A DNA stretch of 64,000 nucleotides from Auricularia sp. M13 (Eukaryota; Basidiomycota; Agaricomycetes; Auriculariales; Auriculariaceae). A model generated the notes under the pieces. It was not told where the DNA came from. It worked only from the letters and a program-made list of their open reading frames with translations, and did no database searches. The position numbers were made by a program, and so were the translations under genes. Each line of letters opens with the position of its first letter. Within the stretch, counting starts at the first letter, position 1. The DNA is taken from positions 2,170,001-2,234,000 of the forward strand of contig CM073195.1 of NCBI GenBank assembly GCA_037042915.1, read 5' to 3'. Positions 18,653-46,838 of this stretch are shown one piece after another.

Positions 18653-19282
18653 TCACGGCACTCCCTCGCCATCATCTGCGGGCTCGTGAAGCTCAAGCCG
18701 GAGCACGTTCGCGGCATCCCCCAGCCGCGTGTCAGGTCTGCTCGAGGGCTGCCTCTGGTTAGCACAATAGCTGTCTTGTAGATTGATGGCGCGAACTTAC
18801 GGGCATCTGTTCCTCGCTCTTCAGGTGCACATCTCCCGGGCTGGCAGACGTGCCCCCAGGTCCGAGCTTCGTCCGGTCCGCGGCTACAGGTGGATAAGGC
18901 GTCGGAGAGCGGGACAGGTCGAGCTGCTCGCTCAGGGCCCGCACGCGGTCTTCGAGCTCGGCTACCTGCTTCCTCATCGCAGCGAGCGCCTGTGAGTCCC
19001 GGCCCCTTCGCTTGTCGGGCTCTGCTGAATATTCGCACTAGAGGGTACGAGCGTCAGCAGCGTCCTTCATTCATACATGCTACAGGGCGCACCTGTAAGC
19101 CGTGGACGACGCAGGTGCCGCAAGCTGGCTCGGCCCCGTTGCATTTCGTTTTCCTATGCGACGTCAACTGTAGATTGCGACATAGTTGAACCGACTCACC
19201 GGCGTCTGCAGACCACACAAGCTCTGCTGACGTGGGGAGAGTGGCGACGATCGACAGTGCTCTCGACTGATGAATCCTTCAT
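18653..19282 (-). CDS. Small Zn2Cys6/coiled-coil protein (copy A)
   Basis: Four exons on the minus strand: 19282-19200, 19153-19093 (61 nt), 19037-18801, 18754-18653 (102 nt). All phases agree and give 160 aa. The zinc cluster fits CX2CX6CX6CX2CX6C (CVVC...CNGAEPAC...C) and is interrupted by introns after CRRR and after HGLQ. A basic linker (EPDKRRGRD) follows, then a coiled coil (MRKQVAELEDRVRALSEQL), a Pro-rich tail, and a final exon with a hydrophobic strand (NVLRLEL) ending in acidic residues. Zn2Cys6 domains bind DNA as transcription regulators in the nucleus. This protein lacks the fungal transcription-factor regulatory domain. Full-length family members are usually 500-1000 aa. Paralogs lie at 24485 and 46185. 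Confidence 0.8.
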
Positions 19283-19335
19283 CTGATGGTTTGCTCTACC
19301 GTCGTGAATAAGGTAGAAGCTCCATTTGTAGGGCC

Positions 19336-19342
19336 TTTTATA
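19336..19342 (-). promoter_or_regulatory. TATA box of small Zn2Cys6 copy A
   Basis: The minus strand reads TATAAAA 54 bp upstream of the ATG at 19282. Similar boxes precede both paralogs at comparable distance. Confidence 0.6.
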
Positions 19343-20590
19343 CTCTAAATTACGGATTCTCTACGGATATGAAAACCCGCAGGAAAATGCACGCCAATCA
19401 ATGATTCATGGCTTTTCCCTGCTGTCCGCGCTGCACTGCCGCTCTGTTATTCACTAGACTGTCTCTCAGTAGTATTAGCAGGATCCGCCGAGTAGGAGTC
19501 AGCCACGGTGAAAGGACGGGCTTCCTGTCGATTCAATTGCATTGCAAAATGTCGAAGGAATACAGGTAGCCTGCGGAAATTGCAGCTTCTAAGCACCGCA
19601 CCTGAGGAGGCTCGGCGGGTCATCTAGGCTCATCTGATTGTAATATTCATGCGCGGGGCGGACCAATGTGAGCCGCTAGCAGTTTACATTGTATTTAACC
19701 GTGAAGAGTGTTTAAATTTTGAGGTCCAGTTGCACAACGCTGTGCCTGCATAGAGATGCCATCGGAGCGGGAGCATCGTACTTAACACCGAGCCATCGCC
19801 CACCAAATCTGTGGTCATGAGAGAACGCCAGACGGAATTTCGTGAGACAAGGTACATCGCGCGGAATATTAAGCAGGGAAATCTCATTGTATGTCAGACA
19901 ATGAATACGGAACAATGTAGGACTGCGAGCGTGCCGATTGTCCGTCCACCCACAGTGGATTATCTGCTTGCAAACTGGTATAGGATGAAGCTGCAGAGGG
20001 TGATGATACAATGCTCGCAACATTGGATGGACCCAGATTCCCTTTACGGCACTGCATTTTCGCCATGGCTAGGTGAGCGGTCTCGGTAGTATTCTCAGCT
20101 TGTTCACAGCTGACGGAGGATGCCCGCCTGTAGGCGGGCGCTTGATGGGCGTTTTTCTCGGTTCGCATGCCGGACATTCGGAATTCGATAATGATAGCTC
20201 AATCGCACGGTCCAATACTGATATCGAGTCATACCGACAAGTACAACTTCTGAAACCATTACAATGCCGTTCCCGAGTGTCTAGCATGGAGGATTGAACT
20301 AGCAGGCAGGCGCGCGTAATTTAAGCCACCATACTATCTCAAAGGTTCACGATTTTCTAGCATGGAGGACTGTTTCATGTGCATAAGTATACTTGAATCC
20401 ATTAGTGTCGACGGGCCGCGTCGACAGGCTCAGCAATCCTTCGCCTGGAAGGTCTGCCGAGACAGATCGAAGTCGCATGTGGCCCGGGAGGCCTATGTAT
20501 TACGCCTATGAGTCACATGTTGTAGCCTTTCCCACCTTGTCTTACCGTTTGGAGGAGATTGCGGCGCCACATTCACGTATGAAGTAGTGT
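19343..20590. other. Gene-free stretch
   Basis: No supported gene. Contains a 20-bp hairpin GCCCGCCTGTAGGCGGGC near 20120 and a 14-bp direct repeat, TCTAGCATGGAGGA, near 20280 and 20357. Confidence 0.45.
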
Positions 20591-23118
20591 CTAAAGAAAT
20601 GTCGTTTGCGGAGGGGTGAAGACCTCCAGGGTCATGGGGAATGATGGTAGATGCGATGCATCGGGTGAGGGTAGTGGGAATTGTGGTAATGCGCCTATCC
20701 TGGCGTACAGGATTTCGGCGAAGCCTTTGGCACACGGCCAGATCTCCTGTACAGACTGAAGAAAAACGCAGACCTGTAGGGCGTATTCGACCATCTCGTA
20801 CTCGAACTGGGAATTAGGAGGTGATGATACTGCAAGGCCGGATTCTGCTTGCAGCAGGAGGGCAAGGCCACCAGCGAATGCCATGTCGACGAGCACGCAT
20901 GGAATGGAAGTTGCAGGGTGGTTGTCCTTGAATGTGCTGACGATCTCAACGAGACGTTTAGCGGCGCTCTTATGTCTCTAATATATGCACCCAATCAGTA
21001 TCGGTGCATAGACTCGTATTTCCAGGCAGTTAACGTACCTCGCGCGAGGAATCTCGCATTGGTGGATGGTGCAGAATGAGACAAGCCCACGCTGACGCTG
21101 CGCGAAGCATCGCAAACTGAGCATCTTCTACCCCCATTCCACTACTCGGCGGAGAGATGCTCATGTAATGGTCCTGGGGGCTGCAGACAGACGGTGTTCA
21201 TGCATCGCATTCGCTTCGAGAGCTTGCGAAATGTCGAGGAACATCTTCGATGTGAAGATAAAGGGATGGCTCGCCATGACGTTTTGCAGTGCTCTTTCGC
21301 GCTCGTGTGCCCGACTAATCATAGGGTGAGACGTGGGAATCGGCCAAGGCGGTGGAAGGGAGATTTCCTGCCCCGTGTACACCGCGATCTCAACGCTCTA
21401 TGAGCAATCTATTAGAATTGGTGCTCGTGTTAAGGAACAAACGACTTGCCTGGTTGAACAGGGAAGTGTAACACCACAAGCGCTCCAAGCTCTCGTCTGC
21501 TGGACCGCTATACTTCGCCGGATCCATGTGCATGCCGGCCGTAAGAGCCAGGTGTCCTGCCATGCCGATCGTGAGATACGCCATGCGAGCCCCTCCCGGC
21601 GTTGCGAGATGGTATCGAGCGAGAACCGTTAGCCCTAGAATGGCAGGAAGAATGCGCTTGTTGTCTCCGCAGTCAGCAGCTATCCATTCGCGAGCTGACG
21701 TGGCCAAACATGTTCGAACGCTAAACTCCAGAAGCGCTGTCCCACGAGCCAATGTGCAAGCTGCCGCGAGAATGGCGCAATGAAGACCGGGGCTGTAATG
21801 GAGTGTATGAATCGCCGAAGAAGGCCCGAGAGCCCGTTCCATGTCCGTGAGGAACAATTGCCGGATGACGGGAGTCTGCCAGATTTCCGCGTGTACGAAA
21901 TAGAGGTTGAGGGCGCGGTCGTGATCCGCGCGGGTCAAGATTGCCCGCACTGACTCGGGAATATGTCGGTTCCATTCGTAGACAGCAGGCGGCGCTACAG
22001 CATAATACGGTAGCTGAAGCGATGATTGTATGACGCCGGATTCCAAGCTACCATCACGTGGGACATGCACATACTGGCGCTGAGTATTTCCCGCGTGCAC
22101 CAGCGTAGAGGTGCGTCGCACTGCCAGAGGCTCGCGGCCGTGGAACTATTGATTATCTCAGTTGAGGTCGGGAACCGCGCGGGAATGAGCTCACCGGAAT
22201 CATGACCCTCTCCGTGGAGAAATACTTGAAGTGCGTGACAGACGTCATGTCCCAAGCGCTCGAACCGCTTTCACTCGTGTGGCTGTTTATAGGACTAGGG
22301 TTTCCTTGATCAGGAGACGTTCCGCCAGGTGAGGAGGTGAGGAAGTGGGAGAACGGCAGGTCACGAGGGACATTCAGATACTGATCGGTGTCGAAATGCG
22401 CGAGTCCAGAGTGGGAGTTGGAAAGGCTGGAGAGTGATGCAGCAGAGGAAGCTTGCTGCGGGCTGAGGCCCTGTGGAAGCGGAATGGTGCAGAGATTGGA
22501 AGTCATGATGCCTTCTAAATAGACGCGAGCGCGAAGAGCACTGGCATGTCTATTGTGGGGATTATGCTCGTCCGTGAGTGGCGAATCGTAGGATATGGGA
22601 CAGTTGAACCCGTCGACACCGAATTGGTCTGTTGAAGAGTGGTAGGACCTTTCGTTCTGCATGTCGAGGATCGGCTTGTATAGGGCATCAATGCTGCTTG
22701 GCGGCTCGGTGATGGTTGAAGGACCATCAACTGAGGAAGCCGGCTCTGAAGGCGAGAGCTGGCCACCATAAGCTAGAAGCTTGTTCTTGTAGTATGCGAC
22801 ATTTTCCTGGAGAGATTGAATGATTTGCGCCATGTCGTCAACTTTTGCCTTCCAGCTTTTCGATCGACCATCAGGAATGCTTGAGTAATGGCACTGACCG
22901 CGCCCGTCAACACAAGGTTAGAGATGTTGTTCTCAAGCACGTACCTGAGTCCCGTGGACCTTGCAAGTAGCGCACGGCTTCTCGGTACTACACTTTGTCT
23001 TTCTGCACCGAAATCAGCACCGCAGCCGACATGTCCACGCGGCTGACCGTTGTCGACATGCATCGCAAGCATGACTAACATGTTTTGCCCGTCGACCCTG
23101 AGCCATAGGCTCCTTCAT
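20591..23118 (-). CDS. Zn2Cys6 transcription factor with fungal regulatory domain
   Basis: The start is the ATG at 23118. Well-supported exons: 23118-23048, 23002-22945, 22893-22195, 22145-21450; then a block starting 21388, a block 21173-21039, and 20977-20591. The zinc cluster is CX2CX6CX5CX2CX6C (CDAC...CSTEKPCATC...C) with a dimerisation helix (KVDDMAQIIQSLQEN) after it. The middle part has the layout of the fungal-specific transcription factor domain: ARYHLATPGGARMAYLTIGMA...GMHMD, then GQEISLPPP. The C-terminal block (LVDMAFAGGLALLLQ ... VQEIWPCAKGFAEIL) is typical of its tail. The intron after 21450 starts with GC (CAG|GCAAGT). The join between the 21388 block and 21173 is unsettled. 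Likely a nuclear regulator; targets unknown. Its zinc-cluster introns sit where those of the small copies sit. Confidence 0.85.
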
Positions 23119-24484
23119 ACTCAATGTGAGCACAACTAGGGGACGTGAACGAGGGGGACAGGCACGTACAGCACATTCGTTGTTTTATGTGACGGAGCGG
23201 CTTTGGAAAGCCGTGCCCTCAATCTCCCGATGCTGAAAACGCCACAGTGCGCGAACAGCCCAGCAAGTGCTTAAAGCGCAGCTGGAGGAAGTCCACGGAA
23301 GTGTCATCTACAATCGCGTACCTCACGCGCTGAGAGACTCAACCCAGCGTGGCCTTTTCGCACTGGCCGTCTCAGACGCATATCGGGCTCCGTGAAATGC
23401 CGCAAGAACGATGCAAGTCTGCGAGAAAATCAAGGTTCAATTGGTCATCGAAATGCGTCAGAGCCCTCAGGATGGAAGCGGGTATCCAACGCAATCGGAT
23501 TTTTACTATCCCGTGCGCGGTAATCGGGCCGTTCCAATTCCGAATGGACGACATACCTGCCAGATCTTTCCCGTCCGTCCCAAGAGCGAGGATTCAGTAA
23601 TATCCGCGGGTTTTAGATGAGTATTGGTGGGGCATTGTTACCTTGCCGTTACCGGATGGAAAAAGGTTGCAGCGGACTTCAAATTCACGGACACGGCCGC
23701 GCGCGCGGATGAAAACGCGGAGGTCAACTTTGCCTCACACGCTCGAGCTCAAGCTGTACCGGACGGCGGCCATATGTGGTGTTATTAGTCGAACACTTGT
23801 GCTTCGGGGGTCTATCAGCTTGCGCGCAACCTACTCATCGGTCAGCCTTGTATAAACCGCCGTGTCTCTCGACTTTTGCTTCAGCTTTAAGATTCCCCGA
23901 CGCGGCAGCTGGACTGTCTTCATTTTCTAGGACCTGCTTGTTGGGACAGTCTGATTCTGCCTCGCAATTTGCCTTCTACCCCGTCCTCTTCTTGCCGTAG
24001 TATCCGGTCTTTAAACCTCACGATAACGAACTTCGTGAGCACCTGAAGATTGCCGGTTGAAGCTCACTTCGAAGATGTTCCTCAGATATTTGACGATCTC
24101 TTGCCTGGGACGACGATGCAAAAAATTATACCACCATCGTCGACTGTGACTATTGCCGTGCAGGTATGTACGCATGGTCAGTGTGTTTCGACCTTCCCTT
24201 GCAGCATCTCTACGACTCGCTGCTCACAAGACATATTAGGCATAGAAGTTTGCGCTAGAGATCATCGACTTCGTCGCTCCTAGGCACATGTCCTATCGCG
24301 GTCAACTCAGGCTGAAACGTATTTCATCACTACATATTTCTGGCGCGTGTCTACATTCTACCTATCAATGTGTATAGCTGAATCCAATTACGCACTGCAG
24401 AACGGGCTACTCGAAACCGGAGGTGTTTAGTAATTATCTGAAGTTGAACATCGTGCAAGCGTCTTTCTGGGGGAGAGTCTGCGC
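23119..24484. other. Gene-free stretch upstream of the regulator
   Basis: Contains the likely promoter of the 23118 gene, but no TATA box was seen. Short frames at 23349-24283 have no recognisable domain. Confidence 0.45.
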
Positions 24485-25256
24485 TCACTTCATGGAGAGC
24501 GGAAGATCTTCGCTATCCATGTCGTCCGCGTTCAGTTTCCCCGTCTGGCTCTTGGCAATGGCCCGACTCGAGACCGTCTCGGCAAACGGTCGCTGCAAAT
24601 TGTCGGTGACTTCAACAATTAGGAATCTGTCACACACAAACCTCCAACGATCGCTTCTCCGCACCATCCTCGCGTTGCAATTCAGCTCCGCTGGCCTTGA
24701 GCACGCAGCAGAGTAGTGGCCATAACTGCTCCTCGCTGCAGGACAGCAGGACCCTGAGCTTGTTTTCCAGTTCCGCTATCACCATGTCGCAGATTTGCGG
24801 TACAGGCTGGACGCGCCGCTCGAGTTCTTCAACCTGCTGTGTTACGGGCTGCACCTGCCGCTTGAGCTCTTTGACCTCATCCTTCAGGTCGGCGATGGCA
24901 GCGTGTGCGTCCCGCGTCTTGCGCCTGTCGGGTTCAGCAGACCAGATGCACTATAGACACGATCTCAGACGTTGAAATGGCCGGGTACAATTTCGGTACC
25001 CTTGACAAAGTGTGCTCACATCTGTCCCATGAACACGGCACGTCCCGCACAGTGGCTCGATGCCGTCGCACTTCGACTTCCTGGAAAGAACCGCTTAGTT
25101 TGCGTAGGAAAACACTATTTTATCTCACCTTTGTCTGCAGATGGCGCATGCGCGGCTGACGTGCGTAGAGCGGCGCCCTCCGGTACAGCCTCCCGTGTCA
25201 TACGGTTCAAAACGGGTTGTGTCCGTTGGGTCAGAGTCCGTTAAAGCATGCTTCAT
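24485..25256 (-). CDS. Small Zn2Cys6/coiled-coil protein (copy B)
   Basis: Four exons: 25256-25129, 25080-25020 (61 nt), 24950-24642, 24592-24485, giving 201 aa with consistent phases. The zinc cluster (CAIC...CDGIEPLC...C, CX2CX6CX6CX2CX6C) is split by introns at the same two places as copies A and C. EPDRRKTRD follows, then a long coiled coil (LKDEVKELKRQV ... VEELERRV), then WPLLCCVLKASG, which matches WPLLSCTLKAND in copy C. The last intron (GTTTGT...TTGCAG, 49 nt) is less consensus-like than the others. No regulatory domain is present. Probably a DNA-binding protein, perhaps dimerising with itself or a relative; that is inference. Confidence 0.75.
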
Positions 25257-25322
25257 AGCTCTTGTGCGTGTTGAAGAGGATGTGAGCATGTAGTCCAGCG
25301 TACAGTCTTGCTGACGCGGGGT

Positions 25323-25329
25323 CTTTATA
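25323..25329 (-). promoter_or_regulatory. TATA box of small Zn2Cys6 copy B
   Basis: The minus strand reads GTATAAAGAC, 67 bp upstream of the ATG at 25256. Confidence 0.6.
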
Positions 25330-28300
25330 CTTCAACGTTTGGCTGTTTCCGGACAGCAGCGGGAATCTATCCGGCGTACAGTTCCGAGCCGCTTTCCCGC
25401 GGGTTTGTCGAGTGTTAGCATGCACGTGGTAGCATGCTGTATGAAGGCTCCTACAAAAGGGTAATACCACCTTGTTATATCGGGTCCGTTAGTAATTCGC
25501 GCTTTCTGGATAATGATTGACTCGAACTTTTGCCGCGGATCCCAGTTTCGGATTCCTCACTACAGGCCTAGCGGGCACCGCTTTGAGATTACGAGTTTCC
25601 CAGCTCCTGCAGCTCAATGGAGCGTAAGTGCGCAGCTCAGTGGAGGACTCATTCCCGTTCAAGCGTCCAGAAGGTTCGAATCATCATCGACCCTGGAGAC
25701 GCCCGCCTGTGGCGGTCCGACAACGAAGCAATGGTCATTCCAAACAGCACAGTGGTGCTACTTTTCCGGTAGTGTTGCCGATGAGCAAACACCCGCAACT
25801 GCAGTGCTTGAGTAGCAGGACCCTTGATTGTGTGGCGGAACCCCTTTTGTCCTTCAGCGCGTAACTCGCGGGTTCGCTTCCGCGGGAATGTCAATGACGC
25901 AGCACAAATGTCATTCCACACTGGGAACGGATAATGATGCCTCGGGCCCGCGAAAACGGATCGAATCTCATTTGCTAATTTGTCTAAGTCACCGACTCCT
26001 TATTAGGTGAGACGGAGTCTTACCTGATAAGGTAATAGTCGGTTCTTCCTTGGGGGGGGGGGGGGGGGTTCGTTGAAACGCTGAAACATCCGCTCCGTGT
26101 CGCGGTCCGAAAGCCGACCCAATGGGATTTTGAGAACTGCTTCCGCGAGGCTTGCCTTTTTAGTAAATCACCTTCAAGTGCGCTCTCGCTCGCGCGCCCG
26201 AGCCCCTCACAACACCGCTGCCCAGTGGCAGCTCCTTTAAAAACCTAGCTGTGCGTCTCATACTTATTTTTCGTCAATATATCTCGGTTTTGTCTAAGAA
26301 CGGCATTGGTGTCCTAAACGCAGTCCTTGCCTCTCGTGAGACCTGATGAATATGTATTACATGTCATTATGTGTGTAATATAAGCCTTGTATGGCGTCCT
26401 GCATATTTATTCACGCACAGTTCGCCCCGTGAGGCTGGTGCTGAGGCTAGGGTTGAACTCCGCATCGGCCTGTTATGTACACTCTCCTCTGAGCGCGCAC
26501 CTGGGCGCTGGCTTTCGGCGGATGAGCTGCTCAGTATGTTTTTTCACAAACTTTCACAGCCGGCTATACCAGCTCCTGGTTGGGCACCATTTGCTAGCAA
26601 GGAATTCGGTGGCTTCGATGCTGTCGAGTCACGACGGGGCTGTCAAGGGGGGGCCGGAAGCAAAATGACGGCATGGGGTCGGTAACCTCTGCAAGCTGCA
26701 GAGGCTGAGGGTATCCATCCTATATCCGCGGAAATGCTTCCGTATCCGCGGATATACTTCCGCATGTTCCGGTTTTGATCATTGCCAGAGCCAGCAAGTG
26801 TTATTGACAAGTTAAAGCTTGGTTGCTGCACATTTGCTGCACACAGGGAGCTTCAAAACTTCATGAATTGTTGGATTATAGCTCTCAGTCAACCTCAGCA
26901 TGCAGACATGTAGTCCACTGGGTCTATGATGCACCGGACCGGCCTCCGGCTCCGCCGGAGCCCGGGGTCAGCAACCTCTGCAGCGCAAGTTCGGAGGACC
27001 CATCCATAGTAACGTGATGTACCGGATTTTGCCGGCTGCCCCCCCTTGGGGGCTGTATCAATCCGGACGATGTCGCTGCATGGCTTTTTTGACCAGTTCG
27101 GGAGCGGGCTCATCCAGACTCTGGCTAGCTGCTGCCGCTGGTTTGTCTCAATGATTGGGACGTTGCTTTGGTACTGGTTGCGTGTCCGCTTCCCCCGAGT
27201 CTGGTGCACTGGAGCGGCGAGCATCTGCCTCTGATTGCGTGCACATTATCGACAAGTCTACGGGTCCACCTGCTGTGTCACCGAACTCAGGACCGTTTCT
27301 ATCGTAAGATATGTGGATGACTTGCACTCGATGGCCCAGGTCCAAATTGCGAGATTGTAGTCATTCTTCTCGGGGTGCGACCAATGTATATGCCACATCG
27401 TCAGCACATTAACCAACTGTGCCAACTGCTTGCGACATCCCCATGCCGGTGCCACAATGACAATGTAAATTGGAGCGGCACGAGCGGCGAGGCGCGAAGC
27501 GACCTCGCGCGAGTGCCGCGACCATCCGGTTATCTTTTTACCGTCAACTCTGGATATTTATCACATCGATGCTCGTCTGGTTGTGACAATTTAAACAGAA
27601 CAGGAAATACCACGAGAGTCAACTTCCGGAGTTGCACGACCCGCTTGTTGGCGATTTCAATTTGTATGCGGTCTCAGCTTGAGCTTGCTTGAGCTCAGAA
27701 AATAGTTCTGCGGCGTGGTCTGGCTTCTTGTGGGCTCAGACGTCGCCAAACCGCCCAGGATCCAGCACCGGGCTGACAAGCTGCTCCGCATAGCGTTAAG
27801 CGGATTTGTGAATTCACGACTGTCCACTAAGTTGTCAATATGCATCCGTGCTCAGCTCATTTTGAATTGTCTTGCTCTCGTTGGAGAGCATCATTCTCAA
27901 TGACTGTTTGTGCGAAATGAGTTCCTCTAGCCCCTGTAATCCTGGCCGCCCCCTCGCAAGGAGTCGGTGACTGCCGCAAATCCAGCGGCGCTACGATTAG
28001 GTGATACAAATTAAAAAAATGGATTTACCCAAGGCGAGAGAAGGAAGTGAAAATCCGGGTCTAAGCTCAGTCCGCTTCTTCCCCACTCTTATTTTGTTTC
28101 AGAGAAAGGGCCACAAACCCCTCCTTTAGACTTGACACATTGTTCACGCAGTGGTGGCTACCTGAAGTCTGCACGAGGAAGGCAAACTGGATTGTTAGTC
28201 CTTATATTGCCCGAAATGGGTAGCATACTTCTGTCATTTGAATTGATCTATGCGAAGGCTGTGTCGCACATGATACAGTGTGATGATCGCAACCATCCGG

Positions 28301-28397
28301 CGGAGCTATCTATCTCTCTTCCACCCAGATTCACACTTTCCCGGACGCTCAGCCGCGAGCGAGCCCCCGGCGCTCTGAGCGCTCCCTTTAACGCGCC
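25330..28397. other. 3-kb intergenic region rich in repeats
   Basis: No supported gene. It holds a 17-base G run at 26052-26068, directly after an imperfect hairpin (ACCGACT...AGTCGGT, about 25988-26043). A doubled 20-bp CCGCGGA unit lies at 26721-26760, and a possible 400-bp MITE at 26646-27047. The last ~50 bp before 28398 are GC-rich and probably promoter or leader. Confidence 0.45.
26646..27047. mobile_element. Possible MITE with imperfect inverted ends
   Basis: The left end AGGGGGGGCCGGAAGCAAAAT and the complement of the right end, AGGGGGGGCAGCCGGCAAAAT, match with small indels. GGGGCTGT(AT)CA lies just outside both ends (26636-26645 and 27049-27060) and could be a target duplication. 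The subterminal phrase GGGGTC-G-AACCTCTGCA occurs near both ends, but in the same orientation, which is unexpected for simple inverted ends. Confidence 0.4.
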
Positions 28398-30736: not shown

Positions 30737-31789
30737 TCAAAAATGATACAGACGCACCAGTTCCAGAGTGAAGCGAATCTTCCCTGCGTCACAGAATCCC
30801 GCGAGAGGTTCGAACGCGGCTCTATCGTCCATAATATAATCCGGCGTGACGATCACGAGCGCGCGCAGGGCTACCAAACTCGGGCTCCTGAGCAAGCGCA
30901 CCAGCGTGCCGACGAACTCGCGCTCAGTCGCATGCCACATCCGCGGTTTCAACACAATCCTCAGATTCCGCAATCTGCTAGCACCTAGCCCCTGGAACAT
31001 CGCGCGGAGCGTCTCGGCGTCGGCGGTGCCGCGCGTGTCGAACGCCAGCCGCTCCAGCCGAGGACATGCCAGGACCATCTGCACGACGGTCTGCGGGAGC
31101 TGCTCGAGCGCCGCGCCCCATGTGACGTACCGCTCGACGGATAGCTCACGCACGCTCCCGCCACACTGTGGGAGTTGGAGGACGGAGACCAGCGTGCGTT
31201 GGCGTTCGTACAGGTCCTGGAAGAAGCGTACGCTGAGGGTGTGTAGGGTGCCGCGCGAGGAGAGCAGCGGTTGCTCAAAGCCGTCGAAGAGCGGTTCCAC
31301 GACATAGGTGTCAAGTTTGAACGGAAGCGGTGATGCTGCATGGCCGTGGATGTAGTGCGTCATGCCCGTCTGCGCGTATGAAATTCGCAGTTTGCGAAGA
31401 TTCGGGGAGTTTGCGAGGAACAGGAAGACAAAGGATTGGTCGGGGCGGCTTAAAGTCAGCGAGCAGCCGGCGACGAGCGTCAGATCGGTGAGATGGGCGA
31501 ATGCCGGCGCGCGCAGAGGACGGCCGGACGGTGCAACAAAAACTATTGCCAGGGTTGCGGTCTTTATATTAGGCGCGACAGCGCAGAGGACCGACAGATC
31601 GTCAGATGAAGCCTGGCGCACGTGGGCGTGGGAACTACTGAGAGCTTGGAAGTGAAAATTGACCACGTGGCAGGCTACAGCTGGTTTACGAGCCAGTATG
31701 GTCGCGCATTCGAGGAGCGATTTGAATTCAAAGCGGCCTTCGTGAAATGCCACAGGACTATTCCCGATACAGCGACTCGGAGCTGGCAT
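30737..31789 (-). CDS. LRR-type protein of the fungal F-box-like family
   Basis: A 350-aa single frame from ATG at 31789. The start region (GRFEFKSLLECATILARKP...VVNFHFQAL) is the helix-strand unit that usually follows an F-box. The rest is irregular leucine-rich repeats (FAHLTDLTLVAG, NSPNLRKLRISY, ACPRLERLAFDT, GASRLRNLRIVL). No F-box is visible in this frame. In another frame just upstream, ALLHASSESLYRE resembles the usual end of an F-box region, so an upstream exon or a frameshift is possible. A substrate-recognition role is inferred from the family. Confidence 0.65.
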   Translation of the reverse strand: MPAPSRCIGNSPVAFHEGRFEFKSLLECATILARKPAVACHVVNFHFQALSSSHAHVRQASSDDLSVLCAVAPNIKTATLAIVFVAPSGRPLRAPAFAHLTDLTLVAGCSLTLSRPDQSFVFLFLANSPNLRKLRISYAQTGMTHYIHGHAASPLPFKLDTYVVEPLFDGFEQPLLSSRGTLHTLSVRFFQDLYERQRTLVSVLQLPQCGGSVRELSVERYVTWGAALEQLPQTVVQMVLACPRLERLAFDTRGTADAETLRAMFQGLGASRLRNLRIVLKPRMWHATEREFVGTLVRLLRSPSLVALRALVIVTPDYIMDDRAAFEPLAGFCDAGKIRFTLELVRLYHF

Positions 31790-32988
31790 GGAGAAGAGCG
31801 ATAAGGTTTGTCACGGCAATATCCGCGTTTCTTCTTCGTTTTCAATGTTCGTACCCTCCGAGTCCTCTGTCAGTGCGCTCAGTGCGCACCAGCCGGTAAA
31901 TCTTCCTTAGATGCACGCACTATGGACGCGCGCGTTCTTGGCGCGTTCCGATCCACAAGAAGTCCTCCACGGTGATTTTGCACGCACTGGCCGCCAACTC
32001 GATCTCTGATGACTTCGCGAACGACGCCGGGAACTTAACCGGGGCATTTGACTTTCTGATAACAATTGACAGGTGCAACACTGGACGTCCGGTATGTCAA
32101 ATTCAACATGTCCATGCCGAACAAGTGATGATACAGATTTTCTTCCGACGCAGTGGCAGGACAGTCTGCTCGTAGTTGTAGTGCGCAATCCATTCCGCCC
32201 GGCTTAGTGGCTGTCAATTTCTGGCAGTGCAAATTTCAGAATGACTGGTGGGTACTGGCAGAGCGCTCTGATGGAATTGCGCCGCTCTCGACGATTGCTT
32301 CAACCATTTCAACCAAGGCGCATCCCTATCTTCTGACATTGCACACCAACGACGATTCATGGAACCGTCCGAGACAGCTGTACCTCGTCCCTGTGTCTGG
32401 AGATGGTGACATTTAGACGTCGGTTATGAACGTTCAGCCGGTACCACTTTCACTCGTCATCGCAGCCACACGACACATACGCGTTGTCTTGGGCATTGCA
32501 GTGACACTCTGGACGTGCGCACCTCCTTCCGTTTCGGGGAACGTTTGGGCTACTGAAGGCGTGAAACAGCATGATGGCAGCCCAATAGTCTTTTAGCATG
32601 AAGCGCGCCCGCCGGTCCAGCTCGCTTCTACCCGAATAGGACGCAACCCCGTTCTCGCGCTCTCACTCACTGCCCGGCAACACACTGTCGATCGCTCTAT
32701 CTGGAAGACATGGGTCTTCGGTGTAACAGAGCATCAGTGCGCGGGTGCGGGGAGCACGTGAGCGCCGCCGGTTCTCGCGCTTCTTTGTCGCACGATGGAT
32801 GGACCCGCACCAGCAACGCCCGACTTTGGGCTCAATCTGATCTCGTCATGCCCCCATGATGCATGACCCGCCCCGGCCCCGCCACTGTACTTAATGAGCC
32901 CGGGCTCATCCGCCTTCTCCTGTCCTGCTTCCTTCTCCGACCCCTCTTAGTCCTCCTTCGTCTCCTTCAGCCACACCCGGACGATACG
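31790..32988. other. Gene-free stretch
   Basis: A frame at 32153-32416 (87 codons, two Trp-rich patches) is not recognised. The last ~120 bp are rich in pyrimidine blocks and lead into the ATG at 32989. Confidence 0.4.
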
Positions 32989-35568
32989 ATGGTCAGCGTG
33001 ACGATCCCAGCGCATACGACGGGCGCCGCGCCGCGTCCGCACATCCTCTACGAGCTGCACGTCGTCTCCGGCGGCGACGAGCACGTCGTCCTGCGGCGCT
33101 ACTCTGAGGTGCGTCACCACGCCACTCCTAATTTCATGTGGCTGACATCGCGCATTTGGGAAGTTCGTCGCGCTGCACGCCGCGTTGGGCGACGACTTCA
33201 GCCTTCCGCCGAAGCGCGTGCTCACGACGGTGTTCACGCCGTCCGCGTGGGCAGACGCCGCGCTCATCGAGGAGCGCAAGGCCGGGCTCTACTCCTATCT
33301 CGAGTCGGTGCTCGCCGTGCCCGAGTATGCGGGCAACGCCGCGCTGAAGGAGTTTCTCGAGGAGAGCGAGACGACGGGTGGCGCTTTTGACCCTGAGGAC
33401 GCCGTGCCGTCCACGCTGTCGCGCGCCGCTGCGCTCGAGCTGCTCGAGGAGGCTGCCAAGAATGATCAGGCGGATGCGCCGGAGGGCGAGGTCCAGGCGC
33501 AGGCTGTCCAGTTGCACGGCACGTACTACCCTGGTGCGTCCGTCCTCAACCCTTCCTCGTCCTGCGAAACTGATCTGACACGTGTAGATTGGGCGAGTGG
33601 AGGGCTGCCGCCGGAGAGCCTGTGGTTTGGCAAGTTCGACATCATCTACTTCGGTGCGTCACCGTTGTTCTCTTCCCGTGCACGCTGGCCACGTGCTCAA
33701 GCTGTCTGGGTGTGCAGCATTCGCAACGCCCAACTCATCGAGCACGATCTCGTGGGACTCGGGCGCGACGAGCCTGCTGAAGCGGCTCGTGTCGGCTGCG
33801 AAGAAAGCTGGCAAGGGCACGCGTGTCGTGCTCTCTGTAGGTGGCTGGGGCGGTTCCAAGTGGTTCAGGTGCGTCTGCAACCCTGTATACGTCATCCACT
33901 TTGCATCCCTTCTGAATCTGATCGCGGATCTCTTTCATATTCTGCGACCCCTCGTGCCACAGCCAAGCCTGCAGCACCGCCGCGAACAGGTCCAGGTTTG
34001 TCAACGCGCTCGTCGGCGCCGTCAACACCTACGGTCTCGCTGGTCCGTTCTCTCTGTTCCTCCCTCGCGTTGTTCCTGCATTCTCACCGACCAATGTTGA
34101 CGTTTAGGCATCGACATCGATTGGGTATGTATACGCTATATTCCTCAGCCCGCATTCCTTGAGCTTGAATTACACAGGAATATCCCAACTCTGCGGGAGC
34201 TGGCAATCCGCACAGCCCAAATGATGCCGCGAACCTACTCACCCTCGTCACCGCACTCCGGTCCGCGCTCGGTGCGTCCGATTCGCCCTTATTCTCACTC
34301 TGCAACCATTCCCGCTCGCCCTTGCCCATTTGCCCCGCTCGCACCTCCTGTTCATTTCCATTGTCACCCTCTGCTTCTGCCTCTTTGGTCACTGTGTGCG
34401 TTTGCTCATAGTCTCGCAGGGTCGTCCAAGATCATCTCCGCGGCGGTGCCGCATCTGCCCTGGCTGGGGTCCAACGGCAAGCCGCTGACGAACGTTGCGG
34501 CGTACGCGAAGCAGATGAGCTGGGTCAACATCATGTGCGTTGCTTTCTCGGCTTCCCTTTGCACGCGAACTCCTCGTTGACGCCAAGTCGAAGGAACTAC
34601 GACGTATGGGGTGCCTCGAGCTCTCCTGGACCTAATGCGCCCCTCGGTACGTCCCTCTTCCCCGTCCTTTCTATTCCCGTCCATCTGAGGCGAGATAAAG
34701 GCAATTTGTGCGGCACATCCAAGCAGCCGCAGGCCAACGCGCAAGCTGCGCTGAACCAGTGGACCAAAGCCGGTTTCCCGGCGAACAAGCTCTTCCTCGG
34801 GCTGCCGCTGTACGGGTACGTCAGCAAGAGCACGAAGACGGTGCTCCAGGGGAGCTTCGTGCTCCCTGACACCATCGGCGCGGCGAACCTCATCGTTCAG
34901 GAGGACGAGGATGGCAACTTTTTGAACGGCGCGCATCCGCGGGATGGGTACAAGAGCCCCGCCGACGCGGATAAGGTTCCAGAGGGCGCTGGTGAGAATA
35001 CGGAAGACGGAGCGGGTGAGGTGCCGAAGGAGGGAGAGGAGGACGACGAGGTTCACGCGCTTGCGAGCCTCACGGGCTGGTACAACCAGCAGATCCCGTT
35101 CGGCAAGATCGTCAGTGCCGGCGCGCTCAAGCGTAATGCGGATGGGAGCTATCCTGCCGCGGGCGGGTTTAGTCGCGGTGCGTTTTGTTTTCCTTTCGTG
35201 TTGGGAAGGAAGAGGCTGACACTCCCATTTTCTCGCGGACAGGATGGGATAAGTGCAGCATGACGCCGTTCTTGTATAACACTGCGCAGAATACGGTCGT
35301 CACTTACGATGGTGCGTTTCTCGTTCGCTTTCCGTGTCCCTGGTGCGATGTTGATATGGACGTGTGGTGTAGACCCGGAGAGTCTGGCAGAGAAGGCCAA
35401 GTGGGCGCGCAGCGTCAATATGGCGGGCACGTTTACGTGGTCGATTGATGAGGTGCGGCGTTCTCTTGCCCTCTGAATGCAGCGACTGACATTGAGTAGG
35501 ACCATGTGCACTACTTGACCGACGCCATCCGCACCGCCGGCGGCCGCGCGCCGCCGCCTTCGTCGTAA
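32989..35568 (+). CDS. PX-domain/GH18 chitinase-like fusion protein
   Basis: Thirteen exons with consistent phases: 32989-33108, 33164-33533, 33588-33653, 33718-33868, 33963-34042, 34108-34124 (17 nt), 34178-34271, 34420-34534, 34594-34646, 34701-35177, 35243-35311, 35373-35452, 35500-35568; 586 aa. Residues ~15-125 look like a phosphoinositide-binding PX domain (ILYELHVVSGGDEHVVLRRYSEF, PPKRV, LESVLAVPEY, LKEFLE). From ~165 on there is a GH18 barrel: YYPDWASG, FDIIYFAFA, RVVLSVGGWGGSKWF, GIDIDWEYPN, GLPLYGYV, MAGTFTWSIDED. The catalytic Glu is present. The first Asp of the DxxDxDxE motif is Ala (LAGIDIDWE), so activity may be changed. There is no signal peptide. With the PX domain, this points to an intracellular, membrane-associated protein rather than a secreted chitinase. 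Confidence 0.85.
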
Positions 35569-39016: not shown

Positions 39017-40384
39017 ATGGCGGCGACGGTGGCGGCGCTGCGGCTGCCGGCGGAGCTGTGGACGCTGATCCTGGAGGACGTCGTCGGCTGGTCGGCCCGG
39101 CGCATCGACGTGCCCGCGCTCGAAGAGGCGCGCGTGCGCAACGGCCGCCTGCTCCCGCTGACGCTCGTCTGCCGCGCCCTGCGCCCGCTCGCACAGGAGC
39201 TGCTCTTCCGCGAGCTTGCCACCGGCGCCCGCCGCGCCGCCCGCTGGACCCGCTCAGACCTCCAGCACGCCGCGCTGCTGCGCACTTTACAAGACCTCAC
39301 CGCCCGGGGCAGCCCGCTCCCCGCCCGCGTGCGCTGCCTGTACGTCGTCGTCGGCGTCGGCGGCACGGACCACGCGCAGCGGCTGCAGGGCGGCAAGGAC
39401 ATGGCGTTCGTCGGCCAGCTGCTCGCGCTGTGCCCCGCGCTGCGCTTCCTCGACGTCCTCCTCGCCGACCCGTACCCGCACGGCGACGCGCTGTCCATCC
39501 CGCCCGACGCGCTGCCCGCCGTCCGCGCCGTGCCGCTGCGCCAGCTGCTCGTGCGCATCGACGACGCGCTCCCGCGCGCGTGGACGCTGCCCGCGCCCTG
39601 GGCCGTGTTCGACTTCGTGCTGCAGGCGCTGGCAGAATGGCCCGCGCTGCACACGCTGCTGCTGCGCGTGCCCGCGCAGGCGGACGGCGCGCTCGGCGCG
39701 CCGCCCCCCGCGCCGTTCCCCGGCCTGAAGGAACTGCGCGTCGCCGGCGTGCCCCCGCGCGCGCTCATGCTGGCCGCCACGGGCCTCCAGACGCTCGTGC
39801 TCGTCGACCCCGCGCTCGCCGAGCACCCCGCCGACACGGTGTTCGGCGAGGCGCTCCATGTGCCCGCGGCGACGCGCGAGCTCGTCTTCCTCGCCGACTG
39901 CGGCGCGTACACCGCGCTCGACCTCTCCGCCGCGCACGGCCTGCGCGTCCTCAGCGTCGAGTGGGCCGAGTGCGCGGACGATACCGCCCTAGATAGACTC
40001 GTGCGCGTGCTGGACGAGGCGGAGTACCTCCCCGGCGGGCTGAGGCTGCATACGCTGCGCTTGCCGCTGGCTATGTGCGTCTTTGCGGATTTGGCGGACG
40101 CGTTGAGGACGGGGCTCGTTGCGCTGCGGAGGACCCTTGGGGAGGTCCTGCGCGTCGTGTTGGCGGAGGTGTCGTCTGGTGTTGGTGTGGGCGGATTGTT
40201 GGAGAGGCTGGGGAGCAGTCAGGATGAGATGCGTGCTACGATACGCGCGATTTTTGAGGGCGCTGAGGTCGAGTTTACGCGTGAGGTGCGTGAGGGAGTC
40301 ACAGTGTGATTGTATACTGATGCTCGTTTTGATTTGTAGCGGTTCGTCGATCCCGAGTGGAAGTCGCTCCCGCGCGTCAACTGA
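39017..40384 (+). CDS. F-box protein, GC-rich
   Basis: Two exons: 39017-40285 and 40340-40384. The 54-nt intron (GTGCGT...TTGTAG) replaces an alternative stop at 40307 and adds the ending RFVDPEWKSLPRVN. Total 437 aa. The N-terminal F-box is LRLPAELWTLILEDVV ... LLPLTLVCRALRPLAQELLFREL. The rest is a leucine-rich, LRR-like region (ALLRTLQDL, ALRFLDVLL, GLKELRVAG, GLRVLSVEW). F-box proteins bind Skp1 in SCF ubiquitin ligases and select substrates through the C-terminal part. The substrate is unknown. GC content is far higher than in neighbouring intergenic DNA, as also in the PX-GH18 and RTA1-like genes. Confidence 0.85.
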
Positions 40385-40679
40385 ACCCCACGCGCCCACC
40401 AACAAAGCAAAAACAACAGAATTTCCAACCCGCAAGGAATGGGCCACAGGCTTCACGATCCCCCTCAAAACTGCTCCCATCGCTTGTCATTCAGCGCTTC
40501 ATACATCTGCTTTCCGACCCGCTTTACCACTTGCACTTGTTGTGCACATCGTTATTTTTCGCTCGCCCGCCTCACCCCAGCTTTCGCGCCGTCACATGGA
40601 CATTTTCTTTTCCGCTCGCTCTGCTATCTCCCCGTCCACGTCCACGTCCACGTTTTCTGCTTCGCTCGCTCTACAAGTT
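40385..40679. other. 3' flank of the F-box gene
   Basis: Pyrimidine-rich, with a GTCCAC-type short repeat at 40633-40655 next to the minisatellite. Confidence 0.5.
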
Positions 40680-40820
40680 GTTGATATCTCTGCGCTGTGC
40701 CAGTCGATGTCTCTGCGCCGCCAGTTGATATCTCTGCGCTCTGCCAGTCGATATCGCTGCGCTCCGCCAGTTGATATCTCTGCGCTCTGCCATTCTTCGA
40801 TATATCTGCGCTCTGGAATC
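40680..40820. repeat. 23-bp minisatellite, about 6 units
   Basis: Units alternate between GTTGATATCTCTGCGCTCTG and GTCGATATCGCTGCGCTCCG types, each followed by CCA, so a 46-bp higher-order period is visible. It produces spurious frames on both strands. Confidence 0.85.
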
Positions 40821-41575
40821 TGGTGTACTTTCGTCGCCTCCTTGCTTGCTTGCTCTGAGATTCGCTCAATCGTTTATTGGTTGTCTATCATTCCGAATGT
40901 TCAGGTGACGCGCGGCAACTCAGACGGGTTTGAGGACCATACATCGTTCGAATCCGATGGATCTTCGCGCTGTGCACACCATTTCGACCAGCTCGTTGAT
41001 TCCCTTGCCAAGGCCGGATACTTGCATAGTATCACCACGACGTCGGAATGTGCCACACGACGTGGAATTAAAGATGGCAGGCGCGCGATTGAGAAAGTCT
41101 ACTGTGAAGGGGAGAAACCGGCGCGCTATCGCAGATGCACAGCAGTATGTGATGTGTTCGCTGTGCGAGTGGAGTTTTGTATGACTGGAAGGCGATATCG
41201 GGATCCTGCTCGTCATCGTCCATGATCAGGTACGCCCGAGGTCGCCGAGCACAGCCACGTCCGGAAGCCCGTTCGCGGAGGCAATCATTGACAGAATGAC
41301 TTTGAAGGGTGGCGTTGGCTTCGGTCTCAGCCACCCGTCTGCAAACTCAGCCTGTTACGCACAGCAAGGCCCTGAGCGAGCGAGGCGATGGGCGGCCTCG
41401 TCGGCGCGCTGTTCTGCGCTCTGATTGGCTGGCACGCGTGGTTCGGGCGCCGGATGCGCGGGGCGCTGGGGTTATATCCGTGCCGGCGCGTGCGGGCCAC
41501 CGTCATCAGCCCCTCGACCATCTGCCACCCGCGCTTTGTCATTCCTTTGCTCGCTTTCTGCTTCCTACTACTCTA

Positions 41576-43274
41576 ATGTCTTCAGCGCTCGTTGTATTAC
41601 TGTTGCCCGTCCTCGCCGACGCCGCGCGGCACGATGGCCTGCCGCCGCCGCCGGCGGACCCGTTCGCGGACCCCAAGCACGACTACACGAACCCGCTGCG
41701 CTACATCGCGAGCAACACGCTCACCAGCATCTCCCTCGCGCTCGTCCTCGCTGTGGGTATTGCACAGAGCGTGCTGCTGTGGCGCTACAAGACGCGCTTC
41801 ATGCTCGCCATGACCATCGGCTGCTACAGTGCGTCCTCCGCACTCACCATCTGCAATCAATGCTAACTCGTTGAACTTGCAGCATTCGCCATCGGCCTGG
41901 CGACGCGCTACGGGCTGCACAGCCAGCCGCGCAACCACGGGATCTACATCGCGCAGTACCTCTTCGTCGTGCTCTCCCCGTGCGCCTTCATCGCCGCCGA
42001 GTATGTCCTGCTCGGCCGCCTCGCGCACTGGCTCCGCGCCAGCGAGCACCTGCTCATCCGCCCCGAGCGCATCACCCGCGTCTTCGTCCTCAGCGACTTG
42101 TCGACCTTCCTCATCCAGGTCCGCCCCCCCTTGCGCCCTCCCCCTTCTCCCCTGTTTGCTCACCGCTCATCGATTGACAGGCAATAGGCGGCGGCATTAG
42201 CGCCGCTGCTAACACGCTCAAGATGAACAAAGTCGGCTCGCGCGTGCGTTCTCCTGTCTATACTTGACCCCTTGCTTGCATCGGCGTACTCATCCTTGCT
42301 GTTGCTTCTGTGCAGATTTTCCTCGTGGGCCTGATACTGCAGCTCGTCTCGTTCGCCATCTTCGTCGCCGTCTTTGCGCTCTTTTTGCACCGCCTGCGCA
42401 CGCGCGCGCCGGCGACGTGGGCCGCGAAGGGCTGGAAGGTCCTGCTGGGCGCGATGGGCGTGTCGTTCGTCGGCATCATGGTGCGTTGGGATTCTATACT
42501 CTGCATCACATCCTCCACCCGATCGTGCCATCGCATACCTCTACGCTGCTATTTCTCTCTCCAATATTCTTCGCCTGCGCCTGTTGTTTGCGTCGATGAG
42601 GTGTACTTTGCTGTGGTCTTCGATCCTGTCGATCGCAACGCCACATACCGGACCGTGGCCCTCACCTTCCATCTGCCGCGACTTCGCTCATTCAGAATTT
42701 CGCCGACGCCGCTTCACTGCCTTCTCTGTGATCCATCGTAGCGCCTGCGCCACAGTGCTCATCCATTATTTCGCCAACGCCGCTTCCGTCTCGCCGTCAC
42801 TGCCTGGGCTGTCATCCGCTGTCGCGCCTGCGCCACAGTGCCCGTCTACTCTTCCTTTCACTTCCGCACCCCATCTCCTCCTCACCCGCAATTCACATAC
42901 CTTTCTGCGCCCACCATCCACAAGCCTCTCTCCACTCCACTAACTACCCATCCTCACCGCTCTCATCCTCCCGCATCTCCGCTAATCCCACTTTCCCACC
43001 ATCCCCGCAGGTGCGCTCGGTCTACCGCGTGATCGAGCTGAGCGAGGGCTTCGCGGGCCACCTCGCGACGACGGAATGGTACTTCTACGCGCTCGACACC
43101 CTCCCGCTCTTCGTCGCCGTCGCCGTTTATGTCCCCTTCTGGCCGGGGAGGTATATTACGAGTCCTGATGCAAGGTTGGAGGGTGTGGAGGAGAAGGAGA
43201 AGGAGCTGGAGGAGAGGGGGAGGGGGAGGGGGAGGGAGGAGAGGAGTGAGGATAGTGAGGGGACGCGGGCGTAA
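41576..43274 (+). CDS. RTA1-like seven-helix membrane protein
   Basis: Five exons: 41576-41828, 41883-42118, 42181-42243, 42316-42480, 43011-43274; 326 aa with consistent phases. The N-terminus has a signal-like hydrophobic stretch (ALVVLLLPVLADAA) and a loop, followed by helices ISLALVLAVGIAQSVLLW, IAQYLFVVLSPCAFIAAEYVL, QAIGGGISAAANTLK, IFLVGLILQLVSFAIFVAVF and LLGAMGVSFVGIMVRS. The family signature VRSVYRVIELSEGF...EWYFYALD is clear. The C-terminus is Glu-rich and cytosolic. RTA1-like proteins are fungal lipid-translocating or stress-resistance membrane proteins at the plasma membrane. The last intron is 530 nt, about ten times the others, and contains an imperfect tandem duplication. Confidence 0.9.
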
Positions 43275-46114
43275 GCGTACGCGTCGGGTTATGTCAATGT
43301 GGTGGGTGTTTGGCTGGGGGAGGTAGAGAGTGCGATGGTATAGGGACGCGGCGCTTACTTTACATTTTGGTGTTGTATACATAGGTCACCTCGAATGCAA
43401 ATGCGGATGCGGCTCGGTGCATAGAAGAACTTCCCGCGGCTCCGTTTGGCGACGCGATCTCAGCTTGGAGTCTATTCTCGATGCTGAGCAGAACGTTTTG
43501 GTTTGTGTCTGTGAGGCTTGATCGAGCTGACGACGCAATTGTGCCATTTGGAGGTGCTGGTTTGCGCTTGGTCCTGGTGCTGGTGCTTGTCGTGCTGGTG
43601 CTTGTTATGCTTTTTGCGATGCTGTGCTTGATGTTTGACGACGGACAGTACGGTGGCGGCTCGGCTGCTGGTGCTCGATGGCGTTGACGACTGACTCACG
43701 GAGCTATTCGTCTTGCTTACTTCTCTGTTCGTAAATAGTCGACGCTGGACTGGACTCCCTCGTAATGCTCAACTGGACTACCTGTGTGCGCGAATGCTCG
43801 AGGCGCTCGATGCTGCTTTCTGGCGTACTGTGCGTGCGCGTGCTGGGTTGTCTGGGTGGTTTAGATCACAAGGACCGTCCGACGCCAACAGCGCGCATTC
43901 TCTGTGACACGCGTTCAGGGATGGATGGACTGGCACCACTGAACCCTGATGACCCGCACCTGGTCGTCGCTACTTTCCGCCCGTAGCAGTATAGTAGCTG
44001 TAGGACGGACGCTTGACGGGGACTCCCGCAGTGAAGCTCTCCGATGGGAAAGCTGGCGTACTCTGCCGGTGAGCTTCGCATGCGGAATCTAGACGTTGTG
44101 TGGTAGTGCAGTTCGCGCTTACCGTGATGGACCGTGGACGGTCCCGATCTGCTGCCTGCATCCGAGTACTAAGCGTTGGTGCTGGGAGCCTGGTAATATG
44201 AATGTACTGTATGTTCGCATCCGTGGGAAGATACGTGCCACGCGTCTCCGCCAGTGACGAGGCAACGCACGGGACTGGCAGACCTCAGCCTGTGGCCGGA
44301 GCTGAGTCAATCTGGACCTTCCGAGCGCCGGCCGGTAGACCAAGTGGAAGCGGGACTCAGGTACTATGCATTGTCTAGCCGGATTGAGGCCGCAAAGGGA
44401 GCTGAGATGAGGGAGAGAACCCCCTTTCTGAGCTGGGCGCTGCGGAGAGCGTTTCACCTAGTGAATTCGCAATGTTGATCCTTTTGACTCACCTCGAGTG
44501 CGCGGGCGCCGATTTCCTGTCGAGCGAGTCATGAACGCTGAACGTTTGTTGAACTTTCGATTCTGACTCGGTCGGAGAAGGACGAGACTCGGAACACCGG
44601 CTTTTCGGGATGCGGGTACCTTTTTTTTTAGTTTGTGCGGTGTGCTTTGCTTCGCCGGAAAACATTGCTTTTTACCAGCACGCTGCGCATGATGCGTTTA
44701 GTGAGCGACGGTGCCTGTGCGTCCGGAATCTGGTGATTGGTGATTTAGACCATGGGACGGCGCCCGATCTGGGCGCGGGAATCCCAACCCGCGGGAATCC
44801 GGGTTGACTCCTGAACACAGACTCAGAGACTGGGCGCTTACTGCCAGGTCCGCATTATGAGCGCCCAGCACTGCTTGCGCGTGCTTGAGGAGAACATATG
44901 CTGGCATGCTCCTCGGCACCGGAGTGAACTCCCGCAGCGGCGCTTGGGTGCAGAACCCTGATAGACGCTCCTGTACGCGGGGCAGACGTCCGAGAAAAAA
45001 GGACTCTTGCTTTCCAGGAGGCGTTCTCCCTGTTCCAGCACCGCAAAACTTATGAGGCGTAGTAGAGGCGAGAGCTGAGGGCATTCACGCGCGAACTTCA
45101 CGGAGAGTCGGGTGCTGAAGACTGAGGGTTGGTGAGGATTGGAAGGGGCTACAGGAGTCATTCCTCATGTAGTGAACCCCGCTCCTGAAAAGGTGCGCGC
45201 ACGTGTGAACGGGTGCGCAGGGCTGCGGCTCAACTTCCGCGTACAAACTTCCCGAAGAGAGATCCTTCGCAGGCCTGATGAGTCATTTGCACCGATTGCA
45301 GGCCGAGGTCGATTTAGAGCGCTTGAACTGGTACTGAGTTTCCGACGCGGATGTCCGTAGGTGACTGACGCTGTGTGCTGCAGCTTTTCACGGCTATGAT
45401 GTTGTTCAGAGCTTGGCTGAGAACTGGCATTACGTCTGAGAATTACCACAAACTCGAAGGTGAGAAAGCAGTTCGATGCGACTCGGCCCACCTGATTCGC
45501 ATCCTTTGCGCCAATTTCGCAAAGCAAACAGTGCAGAGATCTTTTCAATCTCACCTCAGTTGCATGTGTACTGCTAGAAATATGATCCACTGCACGTTTA
45601 GGGACGGAACCCGTTTCCGCAGCGCGTGCGTGTTGCTGAAGGGTGCCGATTGCGCGGGACGCAGTCGATGAGCACCTCCATGGATGTCCCAGATTAGTTA
45701 GCTGAGTGGAAGAGCCAACACTACTTCCTGTTTCTGGCCTGTCCCACCGTCCGCTGCGCAGGTTACCCCCGTAGGATTTAGACCGCGACTGACTGACTAG
45801 GCATCAAGGGGAAGATGTTCATCGCTTAGCACAGCTGCAGTGCACTACTTACCACGTGAACCAGTCAGGAGGGCCGAGGGACGTTGTGCTAATCGGGAGC
45901 AGACTCGTCACGTGCCACTGGCAGCTACATACCACTGGTAAGCGAATCTTACGTTCACAGACGACCGGGACCGAGCCCACTGCCCGGAGCGTATGAGGCT
46001 GTGCGGGGAATGTTTGAGTGCGTAGAAGGCGGGCACACGCCAACCGAGATGCACGGGAAATGACGGGCGCTGCATCCAGAGACCTTTTGTTTTCCCGGCG
46101 AGCTACTAGTAGAA
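43275..46114. other. 2.8-kb gene-free stretch
   Basis: Many short frames, none recognised. Contains a GGTGCTGGTGCTTGTCGT-type simple repeat near 43555-43615 and a T run near 44621-44630. The last 100 bp are the promoter of the 46185 gene. Confidence 0.45.
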
Positions 46115-46120
46115 TATAAG
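46115..46120 (+). promoter_or_regulatory. TATA box of small Zn2Cys6 copy C
   Basis: GAATATAAGAG, with TATAAG starting 70 bp before the ATG at 46185. Confidence 0.55.
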
Positions 46121-46184
46121 AGACCTGAGTTTATTTCGCATCTGCCTCGAACGGTTCGAGAGACCATTCTACGCCTCAATCTCG

Positions 46185-46838
46185 ATGAAGGAAGAAAGCT
46201 CATCCGCAGGCATTCGTGAGCATATCAACGACAGGCCCATCAGTCGTCATTCGCGTCATGTTACTCGCGCGTGCGCCGTGTGTCGACGTAGGTGAGAAAT
46301 AAGTTCCAAGCGACGCTGTAGCTGTGCTGAGATTGCGTATAACCTTTTAGGAAGACAAAATGCGACGGTGCGGAGCCAACGTGCGGAACTTGCATCGTTC
46401 AGGGCCAGCAGGTGAGCATCACGTGCGACTTTATTGACCAGATGAGCTAACACTTGAGAAAAGTGTGAATACTCCTCAGAGCCGGACAGACGAAGGACCA
46501 AAGATGCGAACGTTATCGACCTCACTCGCAAGGTCGCCGAACTCGAGAGGCAGTTGCGCGCTCTCCTAGCAAGAGAGCAGCAGTGGCCGCTGCTGAGCTG
46601 CACGCTCAAGGCCAACGATTCTAAATTCACGCGCGAAGACGCCGTTGTCATTTCCTGCGTTCCGCGGAGCGAGAAGCTTACACAGGTATATTATCGCCAG
46701 ACTATCAACGTTTCACCGGATTTACATGCCCTCTAGACGCTGAGCGGTAAACGAGTAGTCTTTGTCATTGAAGATGATATTCCGGTTTCCGAAGACGTGG
46801 ATGAGCTCCAGAGCGACATGGATGAAGATTCACAATAG
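46185..46838 (+). CDS. Small Zn2Cys6/coiled-coil protein (copy C)
   Basis: Four exons: 46185-46291, 46351-46411 (61 nt), 46464-46685, 46737-46838 (102 nt); 163 aa, all phases consistent. The zinc cluster is CAVC...CDGAEPTC...C (CX2CX6CX6CX2CX6C), preceded by a basic/His segment and interrupted by introns after CRRR and after QGQQ. EYSSEPDRRRTKD and a coiled coil (LTRKVAELERQLRALLAREQQ) follow, then WPLLSCTLKAND. The last exon has a hydrophobic strand (KRVVFVIEDD) and an acidic tail (DELQSDMDED). There is no middle homology domain. The acidic tail could activate transcription, or the protein could block full-length relatives. Both are inference. It is the cleanest of the three copies. Confidence 0.85.

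Follow-up and report, generated by a model that had tools for sequence, protein, structure and literature searches.

Three very small zinc-cluster genes lie within a 64,000-nucleotide stretch of the Auricularia sp. M13 genome, which was analysed as a whole and is referred to here as the window (G000:C3:2170001-2234000, in a searched genome of 52.1 Mb and 14 contigs). A preliminary description had proposed that these genes form a family with a fixed exon plan, and this raises the question of whether they are functional genes, whether their exon structure sets them apart and what kind of protein they might encode. Our results suggest that the three genes are probably real, selected and ordinary in kind. 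We consider it fairly likely that they are diverged local paralogs in a wider class of Zn2Cys6 genes with the same introns, each encoding a minimal coiled-coil DNA-binding regulator of the CGG type without a detectable Fungal_trans domain.

Gene models and protein domains of the three small genes

The three genes were confirmed at their places and strands, copies 1 and 2 on the reverse strand and copy 3 on the forward strand, and the coordinates, four-exon frames, protein sizes of 160-201 amino acids and 61-nt exon 2 given in the preliminary description were all reproduced. Copy 1 encodes 160 amino acids in exons of 83 nt (19200..19282), 61 nt (19093..19153, containing the second half of the zinc cluster), 237 nt (18801..19037, containing Cys6, the linker and the coiled coil) and 102 nt (putative exon 4, 18653..18754). 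Copy 2 encodes 201 amino acids in exons of 128 nt (25129..25256), 61 nt (25020..25080), 309 nt (24642..24950, containing Cys6, the linker, a long coiled coil and, at 24666..24734, a post-coil segment termed here the WPLL module) and 108 nt (putative exon 4, 24485..24592). Copy 3 encodes 163 amino acids in exons of 107 nt (46185..46291), 61 nt (46351..46411), 222 nt (46464..46685, containing Cys6, the linker, the coiled coil and a WPLL module at 46572..46640) and 102 nt (putative exon 4 with an acidic tail, 46737..46838). All introns of the three copies are GT-AG introns of 46-69 nt, and two intron sites are common to all of them, a phase-2 site that splits the R codon of CRxR|K and a phase-0 site immediately before Cys6, in agreement with the earlier claim that introns occur at the same two zinc-cluster positions. 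A TATA box before the ATG had also been claimed and is present in all three copies (19335..19342, 25322..25329 and 46115..46122, on the strand of the respective gene), but its distances from the start, -60, -73 and -70, respectively, do not quite correspond to the 54-70 bp first given. The expectation for TATAAR in the window is 0.012 per 46-nt span, for a motif that was picked after the sites were seen.

The Pfam family Zn_clus (PF00172) matched copies 1-3 with 43.1, 36.5 and 39.5 bits, respectively (cut-off 21). Six cysteines in zinc-cluster spacing and a canonical CRxRKxKC loop are found in every copy, and a profile built from the three copies matched the solved DNA-binding domains of HAP1, LAC9, GAL4 and PUT3. 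Downstream of the cluster, heptad runs of L/I/V/M extend over 7, 10 and 6 positions in copies 1, 2 and 3, beginning 17, 18 and 16 residues past Cys6, and these runs were equalled in none of 5000 shuffles for copy 1, in none of 5000 for copy 2 and with p = 0.004 for copy 3. When exon 3 alone was modelled with AlphaFold in single-sequence mode, copy 2 gave helices at 9-47, 50-69 and 73-87 (mean pLDDT 86) and copy 3 a single weak helix at 10-37 (pLDDT 63); thus the coiled coil described for each copy is seen as heptads in all three and as predicted helices in both copies modelled. A Foldseek search with the copy 2 exon 3 model returned no PDB match. The Pfam scan found no Fungal_trans domain (PF04082) in any of the three small proteins, and none was detected in the 20 downstream frames scanned out of 43 (see below), in line with the earlier statement that the middle domain of fungal transcription factors is lacking.

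The post-coil module, EQxWPLLxCxLKA...RED, is common to copies 2 and 3, whose alignment over it scored 80 as compared with a shuffle maximum of 51 (n = 5,000), and residues 69-117 of copy 3 matched copy 2 in a genome-wide search (E = 5.6e-5). Copy 1 gave no sign of the module (p = 0.30 and 0.18), and among the zinc-cluster loci examined the motif WPLLxCxLK was found in copies 2 and 3 only.

Several other features were noted in the window. A 1,060-codon frame at 3673-6852 (-), with a Retrotrans_gag (PF03732) match and a CCHC knuckle recognised by eye, is probably a retrotransposon; an Alginate_lyase (PF05426) match lies at 53806-54795 (+) (E = 5e-47) and a GH18 match under the cut-off at 34412-35260 (+). 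Five long single-frame ORFs are present at 56204-57916 (+), 59459-60409 (-), 16150-17184 (+), 30740-31810 (-) and 49932-50867 (-), two of them with a Pfam F-box match and the other three similar by eye without a Pfam match.

The exon plan in other zinc-cluster genes of the genome

The distribution of the two introns was examined with a spliced aligner that allowed introns anywhere, using a 39-residue composite zinc-cluster query against 24 loci, i.e. the three small genes, the longer regulator that separates copy 1 from copy 2 and a further 20 zinc-cluster loci, a selection from the hits of the genome searches. Both introns were also present in the neighbouring regulator and in three of the 20 other loci (C1:1097k, C3:1839k and C7:3849k), the remaining 17 being without the plan. 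With two later additions, C3:1824k (L093) and C3:1819k (L094), the plan was found in a total of nine genes, the three small ones and six others. In these genes the phase-2 intron interrupts the codon for R or K in CRxR|K, and the phase-0 intron precedes Cys6. Exon 2 is 61 nt long in seven of the nine, 58 nt in the neighbour and 64 nt at C3:1839k. The exact length of 61 nt is no independent regularity, as it results from two introns at fixed places with a cysteine spacing between them that hardly varies.

The neighbouring regulator (20600..23118, reverse strand, 3' end approximate) carries a Fungal_trans match at 21468..21908 (-) that scores 23.2 bits (cut-off 23). The second same-plan gene with such a match was C1:1097k, which scored 24.1 bits, over the cut-off, and 19.9 bits, below it, with a hand-entered stretch. 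For four further same-plan genes (L091-L094), 17 frames out of 34 with at least 75 amino acids were scanned and showed no Fungal_trans, though a diverged domain, or for L094 one beyond the 1.5 kb covered, is possible. Besides their common intron positions and phases, several of the six other genes resemble the three copies in having a stretch past Cys6 that looks coil-like by eye; they differ from them in that open coding past Cys6 is longer in most, that two contain PF04082 and that WPLLxCxLK is absent from the sequence examined. An exon plan private to the small genes was thus rejected, and the plan, which had been put forward as the mark of a family, is instead the structure of a wider Zn2Cys6 class.

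Other observations were made in the same searches. Three of the same-plan genes (L091, L093 and L094) constitute a second local group at G000:C3:1819400-1839600, about 350 kb from copy 1, and here too the scanned frames gave no Fungal_trans match. Of three weak hits that were checked, only L072 contained a zinc cluster, which follows a different plan; L033 and L071 contained none. At G000:C8:2956805-2957020 (L004) a tandem pair of zinc-cluster matches was found in one open frame, an unusual double Zn2Cys6. The contig pairs C9/C12 and C5/C13 had regulator matches with identical or near-identical scores and are possibly second-haplotype or duplicated stretches of the assembly.

Selection, 3' ends and origin of the copies

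Selection was estimated by a codon model with kappa and branch lengths free and a single omega, which was tested against an omega of 1. Omega was 0.034 in the zinc block (52 codons, 2dlnL = 78.5) and 0.22 in the WPLL block of copies 2 and 3 (23 codons, 2dlnL = 4.45), and it did not depart significantly from 1 in the tail block (17 codons, omega 0.55, 2dlnL = 0.43), all of these values being orders of magnitude only, given the very long fitted branches (some at the bound) and blocks picked for alignability; for the coil block (15 codons) 2dlnL was 11.3. Between copies 1 and 3 the zinc block differed at 12, 7 and 32 of 52 sites at codon positions 1, 2 and 3, respectively. The likeness between copies was above that of shuffled sequences in exon 2 (z = 8.2-12.3) and exon 3 (z = 4.7-7.3) and mixed in exon 1 (z = 3.0, 6.9 and 1.4), while introns were at shuffle level (z = -1.4 to 0.9) and the 150 nt upstream showed no clear likeness (z = 2.2, -0.8 and 0.9). 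In neutral simulations, which comprised substitutions alone and scored the start codon, stops and the 12 intron-end bases, the share of gene models still intact, out of 400 runs per copy, was 4-7% at 0.1 substitutions per site and zero at 0.3 or 0.5. The zinc cluster is under clear purifying selection and the likeness of cluster and coil between the copies exceeds chance. The intact frames of the diverged copies had been taken as a sign of selection, for which dN/dS among the paralogs was the check proposed, and a ratio far below 1 in the zinc block bears this out. Part of the selection on the cluster could be older than the shortening of the genes.

These results bear on whether the small genes might be truncated, decaying and non-functional pieces of longer regulators. 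Their small size, the lack of the WPLL module in copy 1 and the unconserved exon-4 peptides would fit such an origin, but open frames, GT-AG introns and a strong third-position bias have been kept despite the high divergence of the paralogs. If the copies were the ends of longer regulators, a middle domain would be expected downstream. Frames of at least 50 amino acids on the same strand numbered 43, counted as far as the next gene for copy 2 and over 3 kb for the other two copies. The 20 that were scanned (all 3 for copy 2 and the longest ones for copy 1, 7 out of 17, and for copy 3, 10 out of 23) contained no Fungal_trans match, so that the preliminary description's own caveat, that exons of longer regulators had been missed, found no support in them. 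We judge decay to be very unlikely. A less drastic alternative, compatible with the reading of the copies as minimal regulators, is that the genes are real and only their 3' ends are wrong, either because there is no exon 4 and translation stops a few codons past exon 3 or because the tail is spliced in another way. The short last exon had been described as a recurring feature, and the reading frame is indeed kept at 102, 108 and 102 nt, but the peptides are not conserved, their likeness between copies being at shuffle level (p = 0.86, 0.55 and 0.42), and the donors of copy 2 (GTTTGT) and copy 3 (GTATAT) are unusual. The choice of exon-4 model had been free in all three copies, and among 2,997 random stops a model of this type could be built after 19.7%. 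On the other side, all three copies permit a phase-0 intron followed by an exon of 102-108 nt, whereas an exon of 95-110 nt was available after only 3.5% of the random stops, and at the DNA level exon 4 shows some likeness between copies 2 and 3 (z = 3.3; remaining pairs -1.3 and 0.1). Given these random-stop rates the agreement in length is suggestive only, and the case for exon 4, made from splice signals and a recurring length without conservation at the protein level, is weak. Wrong 3' ends are accordingly a serious possibility, though one that we place somewhat short of probable.

The searches for further copies recovered the three copies from one another together with other zinc clusters, and no fourth copy was seen among the best-scoring genome matches listed. 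A weak match over most of copy 3 at C3:497407 (E = 0.16) was rejected since it contains no cysteine cluster. A tree of the zinc-plus-coil region did not resolve the three copies as a single clade (7% of bootstrap trees with one change), which leaves room for separate shortenings. Judged from position and similarity, one origin of the three copies is likely.

Possible roles of the small proteins

Gal4-type proteins recognise a CGG-type triplet through their cluster and are paired through their coil, with the linker determining the spacing; a linker and a coiled coil after the Zn2Cys6 cluster are common, though not universal. The three copies resemble these proteins (PF00172) in their six-cysteine cluster, CRxRKxKC loop, linker and coiled coil, and differ in being only 160-201 amino acids long, with no Fungal_trans found. 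That the small proteins are expressed, and how they dimerise, choose a DNA target and act on transcription, is inferred here, the mechanism by analogy with these solved relatives. The coil would join the proteins into homo- or heterodimers, and the two clusters of a dimer would read paired CGG-type triplets. With linkers of nearly equal length, the copies may recognise similar spacings and perhaps pair together. The short C-terminal part, i.e. the WPLL module in copies 2 and 3, and in copy 3 the acidic tail if exon 4 is real, might set the transcriptional effect. With D or E at 11 of its 33 residues, the putative exon 4 of copy 3 would be a plausible activation region, but only if that exon exists.

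The preliminary description had suggested a modulating function, and one alternative is that the small proteins act mainly by interference, dimerising with longer regulators of the same class, such as that at 20600-23118, or occupying their sites. The coiled coil, the middle domain not found in the small proteins and the location, between copies 1 and 2, of a regulator that has the plan and matches Fungal_trans speak for this. Against it, the zinc cluster of that neighbour differs and its exon 2 is one codon shorter, and Fungal_trans was likewise unseen in the scanned frames of four other same-plan genes, so that its absence does not imply interference. We regard this alternative as unlikely. 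Slightly less likely still is a narrower proposal drawn from the sequences, in which copies 2 and 3, with copy 1 as a looser relative, would be a locally evolved, purpose-built set of short Zn2Cys6 proteins that use the coil and the WPLL module to dimerise with the neighbouring regulator and tune it. If true, such a set would be the fungal counterpart, encoded by genes of its own, of interfering short transcription factors.

For A. nidulans AN1569, intron retention has been proposed to give a Zn2Cys6-only peptide (PMC8396895), which resembles the three copies in having the zinc cluster without the remainder of the regulator; that peptide is, however, a splice form of a longer gene, whereas the copies are separate genes with their own TATA boxes. 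The same paper states that fungal-specific domains mostly accompany zinc clusters (PMC8396895). Elsewhere, PF00172 and PF04082 proteins are treated as separate large classes that are more expanded in ascomycetes than in basidiomycetes (PMC3998117), zinc clusters are given as about 20% of basidiomycete transcription factors (PMC5415576), and a basidiomycete cellulase regulator is described with both domains (PMC12997857). In the open-licence literature, searched by titles and opening lines of abstracts, nothing was found on short Zn2Cys6 proteins as a family or on introns that interrupt the cluster in basidiomycetes.

We thus favour the reading of the three genes as diverged local paralogs encoding minimal regulators. 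Short selected zinc-cluster genes are easily overlooked because two small introns split the domain: of the nine same-plan genes, none was listed by a six-frame genome search with PF00172, which gave 35 matches from 116 candidates at an E-value of 0.001 or better. The shared exon plan marks a wider class of Zn2Cys6 genes and does not in itself testify to a new gene family.
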